A model generated the notes under the pieces. It saw only the letters and a list, made by a program, of their open reading frames with translations, was not told the DNA's origin and ran no database searches. A program made the position numbers and the translations under genes. Source: Isosphaeraceae bacterium (GTDB lineage: Bacteria; Planctomycetota; Planctomycetia; Isosphaerales; Isosphaeraceae). From it: a stretch of 64,000 bases of DNA. The DNA lies in assembly GCA_025356435.1 (NCBI GenBank), contig JANXSY010000027.1, forward strand, positions 1 through 64,000, read 5' to 3'. Below are positions 5,304 to 62,243 of this stretch, one piece after another (positions within the stretch are counted from its first letter, which is position 1; the number at the start of each line of letters is the position of its first letter).

Positions 5304-7337
5304 TTAAGACCTGGACGAACTGCCACTGAGAAGCTTGGGGTTGATCCGGTCGCACTGCTCTTGCGTCACGTCGTAGACGTAAATTGAGTGGCCCATCCTG
5401 GCAACGGGCGTCAACTCGGCGAAATAGTCGAACGCCGGCTCGATCGCATTCCAGGCCGGTTGCCAGGTGAAGGCGGGGTCTCCCCGGTCGAAAAGCCGGA
5501 ACGGCAGGCCACGCACGAATGATGCGCTGATCGCATAAACGCCCGGCGTGAGCCTGGGCGAGGGGCCGACCCGCGACGGATGCGGGGTCGCGCTCATCGG
5601 CCTGACCTTACCAGCACGAGCCGGGGGCAGGAACCAGACGAAGTCGCGGTCGGGGACGAGGACGACGTTCGGGTTGACCTGGCCGAAATACGCCAGGCCG
5701 ACAGGCTTGCCCGGCCGGTTGGCGGCGAGCCAGCGCTTCAGGGTGACGAGGTCTTGCCCCCAGTCGAGGTTGCTGTCAATCAAATGCTCCGGACCCCGGT
5801 TCGGTCCCCCCGAGAGCCAGTTGAAAGTCGCCAGGTAGCTCGGGTGGATCAGGGCCGTTTGCAGGGTCGTCAGGCCGAGGCCGACCACAACCAGCGCGGC
5901 CATCGGCCTCCTGGCCTTGCCCCGCAGCGACGACAACCAGGGGACTAGCTTGCCCGTGGCGATAAAGACGAATGGAAAGATGGAAAGAACGTAACGTATA
6001 CCTAGATTAATATCCGTCAGAGCGCTCATGACAAAGAGCATGATTGCCGGAAAGGCGAGCACGGCGACTTCGTCGAACCAGGCAGCCCGGTCCCGTCGAA
6101 CGACGACCAGGGCGACGAAAGACAGCGCGACGAGCAGCCAAGTTCCCTCGGGCACCTTGTAGACGAGGCAAGCGAGGTAGTAATACCACCACCCGGTCCG
6201 CCTCATCTCGCCGTCGAGATAGACGGGATAGCCGGTCTTCTCGCCAGGCGGGGCGTTCGGGTCGAGCCAGAAGGCGGGCAGGCCCTCGGTCTCGACCTTC
6301 TGGTCGTCGAAGCCGAGCACGAATTGCGCGGGGAGAGGGACCGGCAGGCGATCGAGCCAGGTGTCCCGGAATCGATTGATCCGGTGCTGCCAGGACACTT
6401 CGAGCAGCCGGTTGGCGCTCCTCGGCCGTCCCTTCGCCAGTTCGCCCGGCGTGATCGGTCGGGTCAGCGATTGACTCGCCAATTCATAGGAACCGAGCGG
6501 CTTGCCGACTCCTTCGAAGCCATAGCCGACGCAGATCGTCGCCAGGCTGATCGCCACCATCACGCCCCCCTGCCCCGCGTCGCGCAGGAAGCGTCGGGGC
6601 CAACCGGCGAAGTTACGCTCGATCGCGAGGCGGGCCAGCCAGAGGAGCGGCCAGTAGCCGTAGAGCAGGAGCAGGCTGAATTTCGTGAGCTGTGCCAGCC
6701 CGAGGGCTACCCCAGCGAACAACACACCCTTCCAGCTCGGCTGGCGGAGATATCGCCAGAAGAGATACGTCGCGCCGACCGCCATCGCAGCTCCGGCGAC
6801 ATCGCTCGTAATCAGCCGGGCATGGGCCAGGATATTCGGGCAGAGGCACCACATCGCCAGGCTGAGCAGGCCGCCCAGACGCCCATAGAGGCGGCTCGAC
6901 CAGGCGAACACAAACAACCCACCGACGACCGAAAACAGCGGCATCACCATCCGCGAGACGGTGAACAGTTCGAGATAGCGGTCCCGATTCAGATAGGCGA
7001 AGAGCAGGGCGAAGTCGGGATGCGAGGGCGGGTCGGTCGTCCAGTATCTCGTGGTGTAGAGCCCCGCCGTCTCGGGGCTGAGCAGCAACGCCGGGATCGC
7101 CGCGACGAGCTTCGAGAGCGGGGGGTTATGGTGATAGAGCTTGAACGTCCCCTTCTGCCAGTAGGAGATACCGGCAGGCAGGTGGGCGACCTCGTCGACT
7201 GTAGGGTTCTCACGCCTCAGGCTATCGAACGCGAGCGCGTAGTGGACAGCCAGGAGGAGGACAACCGCCAGCGCGGTCCGCGTCTTGGTCAGGCCATATG
7301 GCGACGCGACGGTCTCGGTCTTGGGGTGCCGGGTCAT
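5304..7337 (-). CDS. GT39-like integral membrane glycosyltransferase
   Basis: 677 residues with about ten hydrophobic segments, the first at 21-37. The first extracytoplasmic loop carries the acidic pair D48-E49 in NPTVDEVAHLPAG, like the catalytic loop of the dolichyl/polyprenyl-phosphate-mannose transferase family (GT39/ArnT/PMT type). A large soluble-looking C-terminal region with SNLDWGQDLVTLKRWL follows, a sequence typical of the bacterial branch. Expected role: transfer of a sugar from a lipid carrier to a protein or lipid on the outer face of the membrane. The start is the ATG at 7337. The gene lies alone, convergent with the DUF1559 operon, with the repeat array at its 5' side. Confidence 0.85.
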   Translation of the reverse strand: MTRHPKTETVASPYGLTKTRTALAVVLLLAVHYALAFDSLRRENPTVDEVAHLPAGISYWQKGTFKLYHHNPPLSKLVAAIPALLLSPETAGLYTTRYWTTDPPSHPDFALLFAYLNRDRYLELFTVSRMVMPLFSVVGGLFVFAWSSRLYGRLGGLLSLAMWCLCPNILAHARLITSDVAGAAMAVGATYLFWRYLRQPSWKGVLFAGVALGLAQLTKFSLLLLYGYWPLLWLARLAIERNFAGWPRRFLRDAGQGGVMVAISLATICVGYGFEGVGKPLGSYELASQSLTRPITPGELAKGRPRSANRLLEVSWQHRINRFRDTWLDRLPVPLPAQFVLGFDDQKVETEGLPAFWLDPNAPPGEKTGYPVYLDGEMRRTGWWYYYLACLVYKVPEGTWLLVALSFVALVVVRRDRAAWFDEVAVLAFPAIMLFVMSALTDINLGIRYVLSIFPFVFIATGKLVPWLSSLRGKARRPMAALVVVGLGLTTLQTALIHPSYLATFNWLSGGPNRGPEHLIDSNLDWGQDLVTLKRWLAANRPGKPVGLAYFGQVNPNVVLVPDRDFVWFLPPARAGKVRPMSATPHPSRVGPSPRLTPGVYAISASFVRGLPFRLFDRGDPAFTWQPAWNAIEPAFDYFAELTPVARMGHSIYVYDVTQEQCDRINPKLLSGSSSRS

Positions 7338-7464
7338 GCGCCGGCCCTCGGGCGTCGGGACTGCGAGTTGGCTTCGTTTGGTCGGCGCGGAAGGTCTTGC
7401 CGTGTTGATTGGCTTCGTTCGGTCATCGAACGGCGAGCGATCCCTCCCAGTTTGGGAACAGCGT

Positions 7465-7598
7465 CTGGTCTCCTCCCCCCTTGCGGGGGAGGGTTAGGGT
7501 GGGGGGGCACGGCTCGATAAGTTTTGTGAATATCATCCCTTGCGGCGAACACGCCCCCCCACCCTAAATCTCTCTCACGGGGTGGGGAGGAGACGAGA
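7465..7598. repeat. palindromic element inside the repeat array
   Basis: A long imperfect inverted repeat: CTGGTCTCCTCCCCCCTTG at the left, followed by GGGTTAGGGTGGGGGG; at the right, CCCCCCACCCTAAAT followed by GGGGTGGGGAGGAGACGAG. The arms are joined by about 40 unrelated bases. It belongs to the same family as the element at 10048-10179 (same CCCTCCCC / AGGGTGGGG organisation). It widens the distance between two repeat pairs, as expected for an insertion. Confidence 0.75.
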
Positions 7599-7693
7599 GT
7601 TGGCTTCGTTTCGCGCGAGCCGCATTGCAGGGCGGATTGGCTTCGTTCGGTCAACGAGCGTGGGGCGATCGCTCCCCGCTTTGGAGCGACTTC

Positions 7694-7715
7694 TGGTCCC
7701 CTCAAGGGAAGGACC
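7694..7715. repeat. possible truncated palindromic element
   Basis: CTGGTCCCCT followed by AAGGGAAGGACC looks like the two outer tips of the palindromic element with the centre deleted. It lies between repeat pairs of the array. Confidence 0.35.
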
Positions 7716-8039
7716 GAAGTTGGCTTCGTTCGGCGCGGAGGGTCGTGCCGAGCGGATTGGCTTCGTTCGGTCGGGACTTCGGATCGACCCGGCCGAGGTC
7801 CGTCGGTCCTTGGAACTGACGCGACCTCCCGCCCGCGCGAGACCCGAGTTGGCTTCGTTCGGCGCGAGCCCCTCCACCGAACCGATTGGGTTCGTTCGGT
7901 CGGCCTAGCGGCGCGGGGGTTGGGTTCGTTTGAGCGCAAAGTCAGAAGTCCGATCGGGAGGCGATTGGTTTTGATATGCGACACCTCAGCCAACGCCTTC
8001 ATCATCTGCGTTTGCCGGCACTCTTGTCCCGCGAATCGC

Positions 8040-9569
8040 TCAACCGTTCGCGAGTTCGCCCATCGCCTTGAACGACGCTTTCAGGTCGACATAGAGCCCA
8101 CGATAAATCGGATAGGCGCGGTCATAGAACGACGCGACCTTGGCGTCCTTCGGCGTGGTCTCGACGACCCGGATCGTGGCGTCGCACGCCTCGGGGACGC
8201 TCGAAAAGCCGCCGGTGCCCACCTGAGCAAGCAGAGCCACCCCGAACGCGGGGCCTTCACTCGCATTGATCGTGCAGACATCCTGACCGTAGATATCGGC
8301 CTGGATCTGCTTCCAGAGGGCGTTCCTCGCGCCGCCACCAGAGAGGCGGATCTCGGTCAGAGTGACGCCCATCTCGCGGATTAGTTCGAGACTGTCACGC
8401 ATCGCGTAGGTGGCCCCTTCGAGCACCGCGCGGATCAGGTGGGGCCGACCGTGACGAACCGTCAGGCCGATCCACGCCCCCTTGGCGTCGGGATCAAAGT
8501 GGGGCGTCCGCTCGCCGGTGAGGTAGGGGAGAAAGAACAGCCCCTCCGCTCCCGGTCCCGCGAGCGCGGCCTCGTCGGTGAGGAGAAAATAAGGATCGAC
8601 CCCGCGTGCCTTGGCGGCCTCAACCTCGGACTGGCCGACATTGTTGCGATACCACTGGAACGAACCGCCGGCCGAGAGCACGACGCCCATGACGTGCCAC
8701 GCCCCGGGCACCGCATGGCAACCGCGCTGAAGCCGACCGAGCGGGTCGAAGCCGGGCTCGGAGGTGTGGGCGAAAACGACGCCCGAGGTGCCCATCGTCG
8801 CCGAGACCGCGCCGGGACGGACGATCCCGTTGCCGACCGCGCCGGCGGGCTGATCGCCGCCGCCGCCCACGACCGGTGTGCCGACGAGCAGCCCCGTCGC
8901 CTCGGCACCAATCGTGCTGACCTGGGCCGAGACTTCGAAGCTCTCGAAGCAAGGGGGCAGCAGCGCGGGGTCGAGGTCGAGCTTGGCGAGAAGCTCCTTA
9001 CTCCATCGGCGGTTGGCCACGTCGAGCAGCAGCGTTCCCGAGGCGTCGCTCACCTCGGTCGCATAGGTGCCGGTCAGTCGATAGCGAACGTAGTCTTTGG
9101 GCAGGAGGACTTGCCTCACCTTCGCCCAATTTTCGGGCTCGTGGTTGCGGAGCCAGAGGACCTTCGGCGCGGTGAAGCCGGTGAGCGCGATGTTGCCGAC
9201 CATCCGGACCAGAGCCTCACGCCCCCCGGCGCGGGCCTCGATCTCGGCGCACTCGGCGGCGGTCCGCTGGTCGTTCCAGAGCAATGCCGGACGGATAACC
9301 TTGCCGTTGGCGTCGAGAAACACCGATCCGTGCATCTGGCCACTGAGGCCGATGCCCGTCACGTCGCCCGGCTTGAGCCCGGCCTTGGCAATCACGGCCT
9401 TCACAGTCGACCTGGTCGCCTGCCACCAGAGTTCGGGGTCTTGCTCCGACCAGCCCGGCCGGGGATAGTCGCACCGGTATTCGGCCGATGCGCTCGCGAG
9501 GATGGCCCCGGTCGCGTCGATGGCCAGCGTCTTCGTCCCGGACGTCCCGATATCGATCCCCAGCGTCAC
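8040..9569 (-). CDS. xylB: xylulokinase
   Basis: 509 residues of the FGGY carbohydrate kinase family: N-terminal phosphate-binding motif [28 protein letters not shown] (the QMHG substrate signature of xylulokinases), [27 protein letters not shown] and a C-terminal [18 protein letters not shown] nucleotide motif. It phosphorylates D-xylulose to xylulose 5-phosphate in the cytoplasm. I start at the GTG ending at 9569, whose bases form a GTGA overlap with the stop of the upstream hydrolase gene; another GTG lies six bases upstream. It is the last gene of a five-gene run. No xylose isomerase gene is adjacent. Confidence 0.9.
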
Positions 9570-58048: not shown

Positions 58049-61000
58049 TCAGTTTTCCTCCCCGTCGGCCTGTTTGGGGCGGGTCAAGTCACGGACGAGG
58101 TCGGCCAGGGCTCCCTGGTCCTCATGGAGCCTCTCGCGTTCCTGCTCTTGTTCGGGCATCAGCTTCTCGCCGCGCTGGACGAGCTTGTCGAACTCGTCGG
58201 TCCGCTCGTTCAGCTCTTGCTGGAGCACCTTCAACATCTTGATCTGGGCGGCTGCGGGGATGCCATCGCCCCCTGCTCCGCCGCCACCGCCTCCTCCACC
58301 GCCACCCTCGCCCGGATCGCCGTCGGCCTTCTTCATCTTATCAGGCTTGAGCGAGTCAAGAAGTTGCTTGAACCGGCCGTGCGCGGTCTTCTCGGCGGTG
58401 AGGGTCGGGTTATCTGTCTTGAGCGCCTGGAGCCGGCCCGCCGCGTCGTCCATCGCGGCAGTCGCGCGTTTGAGTGTGAGGGTGAAGACCGGGACCCCAT
58501 CGCCGAGCCGTTCGATTAACTCGCCAGTCTCGTCTTTCAGGCCGCCCTGGACCCGGCCGAGGTCTCGGACCCCGGTGCGTTGGGCAATCGAGAGCTTGCC
58601 GGCGTTCTTGGCGCGGGCCTGCTCGTAGCCGGTCGTCTCGCCGATCATCTTCTCTTGCCGTTCGGCGATCGACTTGAGGCTGTCGGCCATCTTGGAGATT
58701 TGCTCGATCGCGAGCTGTTCCTCGGCGTCGCGACGGTTCTCGGCGAGGTCTTGCTGGGCCTGGCGGAGGTTGTCGAGGGCCTCTTCCATGTCGTCCTCGG
58801 CCTGTTCTCCCTGGTCCTGGTTGAGGTCTTGCTCGGCCTTGGCCATCTTACCCGCCGCATTTTCCCCCTTCTGCGACGCTGAATCAGCCCCGAGCTTGGC
58901 GAGCTTCTGGAGCTGGCGCTTCAGCTCTTTCTGGATCTCAGCCTGCTCTTTGGCGAGCTTCTGGAGTTCCTTCTCGCGGGCCTTGGGGTCGGTCATCTTC
59001 TTGGCGTCGGCGGTCTTCTTGAGGTTGGCCGCCTGGCGGGCACGGAGGTCTTTGAGGTCTTTCTCGGCCTGTTTGAGTTCCTGGACGAGCCGGGCGAGCT
59101 CGCGCTCTCGACGGTTCTGGATCGAGTCAACGAGGTCTTTGAGATCATTCTTGGCCTGGTCCTGGTTCTGGCGGGCCTGACCCATCTGGTTTTTGCCGAG
59201 CTGCTCGGCCCCCTCGGCCATCTTGGCTGCGGTGGCCTTCTGGCGGCTCTGCTTGGCGGCGTCCTTGAGGGCGGCGGCACCGAGCGGGTCGTCTTTCTCG
59301 ACTTTCTTCGCCATCTCGTCGAGCTTCGACTCGAAGTTCTGGAGCAGCTTGGCGAGTTCGGCCTGACGCGCACCCAGGTTCTCCAACTCGGCCTTCTGCT
59401 CGGGGGTGAGGGCCTCGGGCGTCTTGCTCATCAGGTCGGCCTTAGCCGCCGCCTCGGCCGACTGCTTGATCGCCTGTTCCTGCTGCTGAAGGATCGCCTT
59501 CGCCTCCTTGACGACCCCGCGATAGGTATCGAACTCGCTCATGCTATCGAGCATTTTCTTCAGCTCATCGGCGATCGCCTTCTGGTTCTTGTTGGCGTCG
59601 TTAAGTGCGAGCTGCGGAGCAGGCTTGTCAGCCTTGGGCTGACCGGCGTTTGGCTTCGTTTCGTCGCCCGGCTTGGGGTCGCCGCCATTTGGCTTCGTTT
59701 GGTCGCCCGACTTGGGATCGGAGGGCTTGCCCGAATTTGGCTTCGTTTCGTCACCGGGTTTGGGCTGGCCCGCGATTGGCTTCGTTTGGTCGCCCGGCCG
59801 ATCGGGTTTGGCCGGGTCGCCGGGCTTCGGCTGGGCACCCGGCTCGGGCTTGCCGTCAATTGGCTTCGTTTGGGAACCGGCCTGGGGGTCGCCCGCGGTC
59901 GGCTTCGTTTCGTCACCGGGCTGAGGTTGGGCTCCGGGCTCGGGTTTACGATTCGGGTCGGACGCTTCGTCGAGTGCCTTCCCAGCGCGTGCAAGGTTTT
60001 GCTCAGCGGGGGTGAGGTTGCGGTCTTTAATCCGCTCGACAGCCTCGCCCATCGCGCGCATCTGGCGTTCGACTTCGGGGTTGGGGACGTTGGAGTTCTT
60101 GAGGTCGTCGGTGATCCGCTTGATCTTCTGCTCGATACCGTCGGACTTGCTGGTAATCCGGCTTGCCACCTGGCGCTGGATGGTCTCGGCATTTTTGAGG
60201 TTGTCGCGGATCGGGGTCGGCAGCTTGTTGGTGCGGGCGAGGGTACGAATCGCGTCGTCGACCGGGGCCTGCGCCTGCTTCTGCATGGCGTGGGTCCGTT
60301 CGATGTCGTCGCGAAGGGCTCGCTGCTGTTCTTCTAGCTGTCGGCCAGCCTCCTCATCCGAGACGATCCGCAACCGCAACTCACGGCTTTTGCCGATGTT
60401 CGGACCTTTGACATTGTCGAAGTCGCGGGCATCGGCGTGAAACGAAAGAATTGTGCCGGGTTCGAGCTTGAGCGGGGCAAGTTCCCATCGGTAGGTCACA
60501 ACCTCACGCTTCGACGGCGGTGCGTCTTTCCTGGTCGTGCCGTCCCATAGGGGAAGGATGACCTCTCGGGCCGGTTCCGAGCCACCGGCGGCGACCTTGT
60601 AGATCATCCGGATCGAGTGGATACCATAGTCGTCGTCGACCGCGATCTGGATCGGCACCACGGCGCGGGCGGACACGTCGCGGTCGTTCGTCGGCTCTTC
60701 GATACCGACGCGGGGGGCCTCGTCGGCGACGGTGCGGAGGTCATATCGGACGGCGTCCTGATTCTTGAAGCCCTCGGTGTCTTTCAGCTCGAACCAGAAC
60801 GGCGCGGTGGCCGAGGCCGGGAATCGTGCCGAGACTCCGAGGCCGTTGGCGACGAGCTTGACCGGGTCTTTCGACTGAACCTCGCCGACCCGCAGGACGG
60901 CCGAGGCGAGTGCCTTGTTGGCTTTGCCGTCGAGCTCGATCTGCGTCCCGAACACCGCCTTGACCTGCGTGTTGCCTGGCGCAAGTGTTTGCGGAGGGAG

Positions 61001-61897
61001 GCCGGTATACGCCGGGGCGACGAGTCGGACAGTCAATTCGGTCAGAGTCGGCGGGGGGACAACTTTGACTCCCCAGGGAGAGGTCTTGTCGTCGCCCGCC
61101 GAGACGGTGAAGGTGAAGTCTCGGCTGGCGGTGTCGAGCCGACCCCGGAAGACGCCGTCGTCGGCGGGTCGGAGGGCCTCTTCAGAGGTCTCGCCATCGG
61201 CGAACGTGAAGGTGACGCGGGCCGTTGAGGGCATATGTTCCCCCTTCGCGACCCCAACCGCCAGCGTGAACGGCTCGCCCCGCGCGACCTTGTGCGGGGT
61301 CTCGGACTCGACGATCGAGAGATGCGTGAGCTTCGGCCACTCGGCCGAACCGAACGGTAGGAAAAGCCGCTGAAGTGCGATCCGGCTCGACATCGGCACG
61401 AAGACCATCAGCAAGATCGCCGCGCCGACGGCCAGTGACGACCAGCCGAGTGCCCTGCGGGCGGGGCGGGCGTCGATCGCCTGGCGGAAGTCGATCGCCT
61501 TGGTCTCCTCGATCGTCTGCGCGATCGTGGCGTCACGCATCGCCTTTGACCCGCTCGCGTCGGACTCGGCCTGGCGGAGAAACTGGATTGTGCTGGCCAG
61601 TCGGTCGTTGAGGCCGGGCCAGCGGTCCTCGATCTTCATCGCGATGTCGAGGTCATTGAACCGGACAACCAGAGGTGCGACGACGTAGCGAGCCATCAGC
61701 CAGAGGCCGCTGGCGATCACGCCGATCAGGAGCACGAGACGGACCTCGGGCACTAGATGAATGAGCCAGTCAAGCAGGCCGGCCGCCGCGACGGCCGAGA
61801 CGACCCCCAGGGAGAGCCAGGCCAGCCCGTGGGCCGCGAGGAGACGACGGACCTGCCCTCGCAGGGCGGCGATTCGAGTTTCGAGCGGATGACGCAT
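58049..61897 (-). CDS. DUF4175-like large membrane protein with long coiled coil
   Basis: 1282 residues. Three N-terminal hydrophobic helices (about 20-85 and 148-165), a basic loop with VRFNDLDIAMKIEDRWPGLN, Ig-like beta domains in the middle (LTELTVRLVAPAYTGLPPQT), then a proline-rich linker at about 662-750 containing six (D/S)(E/Q)TKP units, and some 450 residues of lysine/glutamate/glutamine coiled coil ending in glycine-rich GEGGGGGGGGGGAGG. The six linker units are encoded by the same 16-base word that forms the 7.4-7.9 kb intergenic array. I start at the ATG ending 61897 (GGCGGGAG upstream), not 61918. First complete gene of the operon after the AT-rich gap. Confidence 0.85.
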   Translation of the reverse strand: MRHPLETRIAALRGQVRRLLAAHGLAWLSLGVVSAVAAAGLLDWLIHLVPEVRLVLLIGVIASGLWLMARYVVAPLVVRFNDLDIAMKIEDRWPGLNDRLASTIQFLRQAESDASGSKAMRDATIAQTIEETKAIDFRQAIDARPARRALGWSSLAVGAAILLMVFVPMSSRIALQRLFLPFGSAEWPKLTHLSIVESETPHKVARGEPFTLAVGVAKGEHMPSTARVTFTFADGETSEEALRPADDGVFRGRLDTASRDFTFTVSAGDDKTSPWGVKVVPPPTLTELTVRLVAPAYTGLPPQTLAPGNTQVKAVFGTQIELDGKANKALASAVLRVGEVQSKDPVKLVANGLGVSARFPASATAPFWFELKDTEGFKNQDAVRYDLRTVADEAPRVGIEEPTNDRDVSARAVVPIQIAVDDDYGIHSIRMIYKVAAGGSEPAREVILPLWDGTTRKDAPPSKREVVTYRWELAPLKLEPGTILSFHADARDFDNVKGPNIGKSRELRLRIVSDEEAGRQLEEQQRALRDDIERTHAMQKQAQAPVDDAIRTLARTNKLPTPIRDNLKNAETIQRQVASRITSKSDGIEQKIKRITDDLKNSNVPNPEVERQMRAMGEAVERIKDRNLTPAEQNLARAGKALDEASDPNRKPEPGAQPQPGDETKPTAGDPQAGSQTKPIDGKPEPGAQPKPGDPAKPDRPGDQTKPIAGQPKPGDETKPNSGKPSDPKSGDQTKPNGGDPKPGDETKPNAGQPKADKPAPQLALNDANKNQKAIADELKKMLDSMSEFDTYRGVVKEAKAILQQQEQAIKQSAEAAAKADLMSKTPEALTPEQKAELENLGARQAELAKLLQNFESKLDEMAKKVEKDDPLGAAALKDAAKQSRQKATAAKMAEGAEQLGKNQMGQARQNQDQAKNDLKDLVDSIQNRRERELARLVQELKQAEKDLKDLRARQAANLKKTADAKKMTDPKAREKELQKLAKEQAEIQKELKRQLQKLAKLGADSASQKGENAAGKMAKAEQDLNQDQGEQAEDDMEEALDNLRQAQQDLAENRRDAEEQLAIEQISKMADSLKSIAERQEKMIGETTGYEQARAKNAGKLSIAQRTGVRDLGRVQGGLKDETGELIERLGDGVPVFTLTLKRATAAMDDAAGRLQALKTDNPTLTAEKTAHGRFKQLLDSLKPDKMKKADGDPGEGGGGGGGGGGAGGDGIPAAAQIKMLKVLQQELNERTDEFDKLVQRGEKLMPEQEQERERLHEDQGALADLVRDLTRPKQADGEEN
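59650..59914. repeat. coding copies of the TTGGCTTCGTT repeat in pairs
   Basis: Six copies of (T)TGGCTTCGTTT start at 59650, 59689, 59737, 59776, 59860 and 59899. Pair distances are exactly 39 bases in all three pairs (13 codons); distances between pairs are 48 and 84. Two copies (59689 and 59776) are identical over TTGGCTTCGTTTGGTCG to the intergenic copy at 7368. On the minus strand they encode (D/S)(E/Q)TKP. Confidence 0.9.
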
Positions 61898-62243
61898 CGG
61901 CAATCTCCCGCCTGGCATCGCCAGGACCGTCGTCGGACGGACACCAACCTAGACTATACCACTCAGCAACCGCCCCGTCCTAGGGCCGTTTTGTCCGCGA
62001 CTTCTCATCCATAACTCTATTACTTATCACCTCTACTAGTTTTGCTTCGTTGATGTAGCGATAGCCGGATCACCGGTTGTTGCGGACAACGGCGGATCAA
62101 GAAAATAATTTTGTGACCTTTTGATTTCTATTGAATATACAACGCACTTTCTTATCTACGCATATAATGAATAGGATTAATTAAAATTCTTAGTCGGCGC
62201 TAATGCCTCGATACCAAACGTCTTAAGACGCGGGCCGGGGCGG
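61898..62243. other. AT-rich intergenic gap in the minus-strand gene run
   Basis: About 345 bases between the VWA protein stop and the DUF4175-like start. The part 61990-62220 is AT-rich like 3340-3900. It holds a perfect palindrome CGTCTTAAGACG (62219-62230) followed on the minus strand by TTTGG, a weak terminator candidate, and a TATAGT box on the minus strand near 61955 that could belong to a promoter. A TTGCTTCGTTG near 62042 is a weak echo of the repeat word. Confidence 0.4.

Follow-up and report, generated by a model that had tools for sequence, protein, structure and literature searches.

A short DNA word, with the core TTGGSTTCGTT and the extended form ATTGGSTTCGTTYGGYGC, is probably a dispersed repeat of the Isosphaeraceae that lies in intergenic arrays, is carried in the 3′ coding tails of an unannotated gene family (STGPRT, named for its N-terminal motif), and has entered the linker of a DUF4175-like protein; we put the probability of this reading at about 0.6. 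The word is dispersed across the family, its copies in coding sequence are identical at the DNA level, these copies lie antisense and are independent of the reading frame, and the word is associated with STGPRT genes. This has the appearance of a genuine repeat system that colonizes genes, and not of a coincidence of codons.

Within the window, by which we mean the whole 64-kb stretch of DNA that was analyzed, the exact 17-mer TTGGCTTCGTTTGGTCG occurs on the plus strand at 7368-7384, 59689-59705, and 59776-59792, in agreement with the three positions of the original prediction. Allowing up to three mismatches, the window holds 12 copies (100 shuffles gave a mean of 0.17 and a maximum of 2), and the 11-mer TTGGCTTCGTT is observed 12 times against 0.02 expected. 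Nine of the words form an intergenic array at 7368-7936 (plus strand; starts at 7368, 7409, 7600, 7637, 7720, 7757, 7849, 7886, and 7920) in the gap between a minus-strand gene whose start codon is at 7337 and another that stops near 8040. All nine share a single orientation, antisense to both flanking genes. The repeat unit of the array consists of TTGGSTTCGTTYGGYSR and ∼20 bp of unrelated spacer, and the pair distances are 41, 37, 37, and 37 bp with one additional 34-bp neighbor, which matches the predicted 37 bp (once 41). Also within the array, at 7475-7586, is a REP-like palindrome of the CCCTCCCCC...AGGGTTAGGGTGGGG type, made of inverted repeats. When searched against Rfam, the array gives only matches far under the cut-offs.

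The core is found 139 times in this 5.6-Mb genome (G000), compared with 3 occurrences of the reversed pattern, and the genome stretches fetched contain 230 places with at most one mismatch to the word. The intergenic unit here comprises ∼17 conserved and ∼20 unrelated nt, with a spacing mode of 36-37 bp (47 of ∼93 close pairs). Enrichment is patchy in the family and is seen in 18 of the 45 Isosphaeraceae genomes. Core counts reach 250 in G030 and 248 in Paludisphaera borealis (G027), against 2 and 4 for the reversed control, and SH-PL62 (G031) has 155 copies; the counts for G007 (9), Singulisphaera acidiphila (19), and Isosphaera pallida (22) are not clearly above the reversed control. Across genomes the copies number 1-250 and are arranged in arrays, the spacing of which differs from genome to genome: 36-37 bp in G000, commonly 80-84 bp in G027, G030, and G015, 64-66 bp in G025, and both 22-25 and 36 bp in G010. 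Several of these genomes are drafts, and gene calls outside the annotated plasmids are codon-score calls. A phylum-wide repeat was considered and rejected since none of 245 other Planctomycetota genomes is enriched in the manner of the Isosphaeraceae, the top one having 36 copies where its control has 17. Rfam searches near the words return nothing above the gathering threshold except a tRNA, and in the literature the 11-mer turns up in unrelated papers only, presumably as primer sequences.

The remaining words of the window lie in the gene for a DUF4175-like protein of 1289 amino acids (58049-61918, minus strand), which matches PF13779 over residues 295-446 with 29.0 bits against a cut-off of 27.3. 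Its low-complexity linker (59606-59956, minus strand) is rich in Pro, Lys, Gly, and Gln, and six plus-strand words fall within it: TTGGCTTCGTTTCGTCG at 59650-59666 (antisense reading DETKPN), TTGGCTTCGTTTGGTCG at 59689-59705 (DQTKPN), TTGGCTTCGTTTCGTCA at 59737-59753 (DETKPN), TTGGCTTCGTTTGGTCG again at 59776-59792 (DQTKPI), TTGGCTTCGTTTGGGAA at 59860-59876 (SQTKPI), and TCGGCTTCGTTTCGTCA, which has one core mismatch, at 59899-59915 (DETKPT). The encoded peptide is thus the (D/S)(E/Q)TKP that had been read from the gene, with the refinement that the words are six, set as three pairs (59650/59689, 59737/59776, and 59860/59899), and the distance within each pair is exactly 39 bp, as predicted.

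A TKP-rich linker might have come to be written in the codons of the intergenic repeat by chance, whether through codon bias or through convergence at the protein level; the codons ACG and AAG are used often in this genome (frequencies of 0.39 and 0.77), and low-complexity linkers tend to repeat themselves. However, CCA is a rare Pro codon (0.10), and yet it is used in 5 of the 6 words and in none of 22 cases elsewhere in the same linker. When the peptide is kept fixed and synonymous codons are resampled, the linkers of G000, G010, and P. borealis are expected to contain 0.03, 0.04, and 0.25 words; the observed numbers are 5, 2, and 4. The same DNA is moreover read in other frames as other peptides, and this frame independence excludes coincidence as a serious account; we leave it only a few chances in a hundred. 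The proposal of a dispersed repeat family with members inside coding sequence is supported.

Orthologues of the DUF4175-like gene were found in all 45 of the family genomes searched, and a low-complexity linker stands at the same place in each orthologue in which this region was readable, from which we conclude that the linker is ancestral. Its sequence is lineage-specific. The original prediction had left room for the linker being absent in close relatives; the alignment of orthologues reveals instead that the linker is general and that the words are not. At the DNA level, exact words are present in the linkers of 3 of 40 genomes examined, namely G000 (five, plus the mismatched one), G010 (two), and P. 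borealis (four), all of which are word-rich. The 21 nt that include the word at 59776 recur in the P. borealis orthologue, and in both G010 and P. borealis a single linker contains identical DNA in two reading frames, giving NEPN and QTKP. The linker of G013 has a four-fold related variant (DRTNPASK), and that of the nearest relative, G007 (same genus, 79% identical), is a DQSKGQ linker without words.

An ancestral linker that holds far more words than its peptide and codon usage predict suggests that the DNA words entered a pre-existing linker, and we favor this direction on the basis of the sequence comparisons: the linker is in all readable orthologues, the words are in three word-rich ones, and the reading occupies two frames in G010 and P. 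borealis. The gene may also have inherited its words from a common ancestor of these three genomes, with loss elsewhere, as opposed to independent entries. An array would have been the source, through copying or gene conversion, with in-frame duplication afterward, such that the words multiplied within the linker with the codon phase kept; in-frame duplication of units would also account for the codon-phase spacing in the window gene.

The coding potential of the word differs between its two strands. Read antisense, it is stop-free in all frames and yields hydrophilic peptides of Pro, Asn, Lys, Glu, and Gln (NEPN, QTKP/TNPI, and KRSQ/ERSQ), and read in the sense direction it yields hydrophobic ones (LASF, GFV, and WLR). 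Coding word clusters are antisense in 26 cases against 1, and the difference between the two readings is a sufficient explanation for this bias and for the location of the words in disordered linkers and tails, regions that would tolerate a hydrophilic insertion open in any frame. The suggestion that selection trims pair distances to whole codons does not hold in general. In this genome the 18 close coding pairs are indeed all spaced by multiples of three, but 14 of them belong to paralogues of one family, and the commonest intergenic spacing of 36 bp is itself divisible by 3. Coding words elsewhere are spaced 67, 70, 77, 79, or 80 bp apart with a change of frame, and this freedom of spacing and frame argues against trimming. 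We also rejected the notion that words generally lie antisense to transcription, as 10 of 11 tandem clusters do so in G000 but the split is 6:6 in G030; an orientation away from the nearer gene (59:18) describes the clusters better.

The other coding home of the word is an unannotated, often multicopy family with the N-terminal motif ANRRNAxKSTGPRTxEGKARSRxNALKHGL, present in 35 of the 45 genomes at up to 37 copies per genome. The tails of 51 copies from 22 genomes contain 30 exact words, where 1.08 are expected given the peptides (maximum of 5 in 500 simulations). All of these are antisense and none sense, and they fall in frames 0, 1, and 2 in the numbers 16, 7, and 7; the N-terminal 780 nt of the same 51 copies (39,780 nt in all) contain no words. 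Word-rich genomes make up 18 of the 35 with STGPRT genes and none of the 10 without (Fisher p = 0.0026, Mann-Whitney p = 0.001), p values that are optimistic since the genomes are related and the copies within a genome are paralogues. The correspondence is loose in places: G001, G002, and G006 have 15, 14, and 22 STGPRT copies and yet are not word-rich, and the copies of G040 are mostly without exact words. STGPRT proteins have no sequence match in NCBIfam, PHROGs, or the PDB, only stray sub-threshold matches in Pfam, and no match among annotated phages. No paper was found that contains STGPRT/STGPKT or two or more of the NEPN, KRTQF, and TNPI peptides, and an AlphaFold model had a pLDDT of 47.6, too poor for a structure search.

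These tails bear on where the word came from. It may have begun as a codon repeat in a coding tail, of STGPRT or of the linker, and spread from there to the arrays. Very different bacteria have STGPRT genes with the word within or close to the 3′ end, so that the gene end may be the ancestral home of the word, and the single STGPRT copies of G030 and SH-PL62 have two words each with a spacing of 70-79 bp, which, like that in the tail of the viral-contig relative L292, is near many intergenic spacings, including the ∼80 bp that separates many intergenic words in this genus. Set against this, nothing other than the word, neither a k-mer nor a boundary, is common to the intergenic clusters compared, which argues that the arrays are not tail fragments, and the peptide of the STGPRT tail shows no conservation in frame. 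In the case of DUF4175, most linkers are free of words. The alternative in the original prediction, that a coding linker seeded the arrays, is accordingly disfavored for the DUF4175 linker itself, and its broader form stands to the extent that an STGPRT coding tail could be the ancestral source. We regard a coding origin as a minority view with perhaps a quarter of the weight.

Relatives of STGPRT are found well outside the family. On viral contigs, three of them (L292, L294, and L295) carry the exact word antisense, either in the tail or directly past the gene, and for a fourth (L293) it is the adjacent upstream gene whose tail contains the word. That upstream gene (L293, 3401-4432) ends in the word-encoded tail ...SKLQNEPNLANGAQ, and its product is, judging by the look of the sequence, presumably an ERF/HNH-type phage recombination protein. 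Two further relatives lie on Rhodobacterales plasmids, each an STGPRT-motif gene near a tyrosine recombinase with an antisense word. In the Marivivens sp. JLT3646 plasmid (NZ_CP018573.1, gene at 2001-2513), the exact word is 160 nt past the stop, with 0.004 expected in the whole 4-kb stretch; in Gemmobacter aquarius (NZ_CP028919.1, gene at 2001-2585), a copy with one mismatch is 28 nt past the stop. Phage proteins that resemble the small terminase share the N-terminal motif STGPRTxEGKxxSxxNxxKHG with the STGPRT proteins, the similarity being confined to ∼45 residues, and one of them (L296) matches Terminase_4 with E = 9.4e-6. The IMG/VR contigs that encode such proteins (L296-L328), with the form STGPRTxEGKxxSSxNxWKHG, are nearly all without words: the 33 contigs (268 kb) contain only two exact words, one of which lies antisense ∼130 nt downstream of the STGPRT relative L300. 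A plasmid search with the L300 protein found nothing.

We compared the word with repeat systems that are already described. Rickettsia palindromic elements (RPEs) and intragenic REPs have units that are palindromes of 20-150 bp with a GTAG or CGTC end. They likewise are dispersed noncoding repeats that occur within unrelated coding genes and are tolerated as extra peptide (PMC3733652). In-frame presence in unrelated genes is also seen here, in DUF4175 linkers and STGPRT tails, but the word is a direct one of 11-17 nt with variable spacers, is read in three antisense frames, is tied to its own gene family, and has no long palindromic unit with a CGTC end. With REP/RAYT systems (REPtrons) the word has in common many small intergenic copies and a gene that carries the same repeat, sometimes in single copy (G030, SH-PL62). 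A REP/RAYT-type or other transposase-driven miniature element is also suggested by inverted word pairs ∼25 bp apart that form hairpins in G030 and by the composite repeat of G000, in which REP-like palindromes occur with words. The carrier gene, however, does not encode a Y1 transposase and has the word in its coding 3′ tail, and Y1 transposases (PF01797) do not track the word: they are absent in the word-rich SH-PL62 and G014 and present in the word-poor G007 and G037, and only 1 of 30 fetched Y1 loci (L338) contains the word. The word also lacks REP architecture. No 20-40-bp palindrome with a terminal GTAG or CGTC was found, the tag being absent from word contexts in four genomes, and the words of G000 are nonpalindromic, same-strand direct repeats, with inverted pairs only in some elements of G030 and G014. 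We therefore rejected a RAYT, and any transposase-driven element of this kind is improbable. With ∼17 conserved nt, imperfect repeats, and spacings of 25-60 bp, the arrays lack the near-identical, constant-length repeats and regular spacers of CRISPR arrays. As regards a MITE, which is defined by terminal inverted repeats and a target-site duplication, the word clusters compared share no boundary and no k-mer beyond the word.

The main functional rival to a role of the word as an STGPRT recognition site is a binding or boundary site used by the host, that is, a DNA-uptake-like or protein-binding signal of the genome (an uptake sequence, or a nucleoid or boundary site), the presence of which in tolerant coding regions would be accidental. 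A short conserved core with free spacers across genera would fit such a signal. So would the orientation of intergenic clusters, which mostly face away from the nearer gene, whichever strand that gene is on (59 vs 18, p = 3e-6; L060-L096, L141-L180, and L252-L291), an observation that no explanation considered accounts for. The uptake sequences of Neisseria and Pasteurellaceae are short genome-wide words, both intergenic and intragenic, with an orientation bias within genes (PMC2346458), and in all of these features the word is like them. Unlike uptake sequences, for which hundreds to thousands of genome-spread copies are stated, the word has at most ∼250 copies per genome, which are strongly clustered in arrays and concentrated in the tails of one gene family. 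A genome signal of this sort is in our estimation a lesser possibility, on a par with a coding origin.

As to what spreads the repeat, it is possible, though we would not wager on it, that the word is recognized by the STGPRT protein, which would drive or sustain the dispersal of the repeat. Our best guess is that the word would serve the STGPRT protein or transcript as a site of recognition or processing, with the arrays as its nonautonomous copies, so that the two would work like a REP/RAYT pair without being one. That STGPRT proteins bind DNA is a guess from their basic motif. About as doubtful is the broader proposal that STGPRT represents an undescribed class of repeat-handling proteins, distantly small-terminase-like and with relatives in more than one phylum, whose DNA or RNA site TTGGSTTCGTT would be kept in the 3′ coding tail of its own gene in any open frame and would have spread into hundreds of intergenic arrays and the disordered linkers of other genes, as a nontransposase analogue of REP/RAYT.

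The case is an unusually clean one of selection or copying that operates on a word of DNA within coding regions, whatever the reading frame, so that a stretch of a protein linker is a side product of a DNA element. NEPN-, QTKP-, and AERSQ-type peptides in these genomes should accordingly not be taken as protein-level motifs. It also connects an abundant and wholly unannotated gene family with a specific cis element, so that both become open to test.

Some words are part of longer elements. A palindrome akin to that at 7475-7586 of the window belongs to a composite repeat of several hundred bp in G000 that combines words with AGGGTTAGGGTGGGG-type palindromes; outside the window it is present in at least 10 copies, which were aligned with the window and several of which lie near contig ends (contigs C58, C97, C104, C148, C180, C193, C282, and C297). 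An intergenic stretch of G010 (C1:3705557-3706071, L146) consists of twenty-two near-identical 24-bp tandem copies of the word. In G030, an element of ∼125 bp comprises an inverted word pair 25 bp apart and, ∼65 bp on, a third word with CGGCGC, and is often located between convergent genes (L161, L163, L164, L168, L169, L171, L174, L176, L178, and L179).
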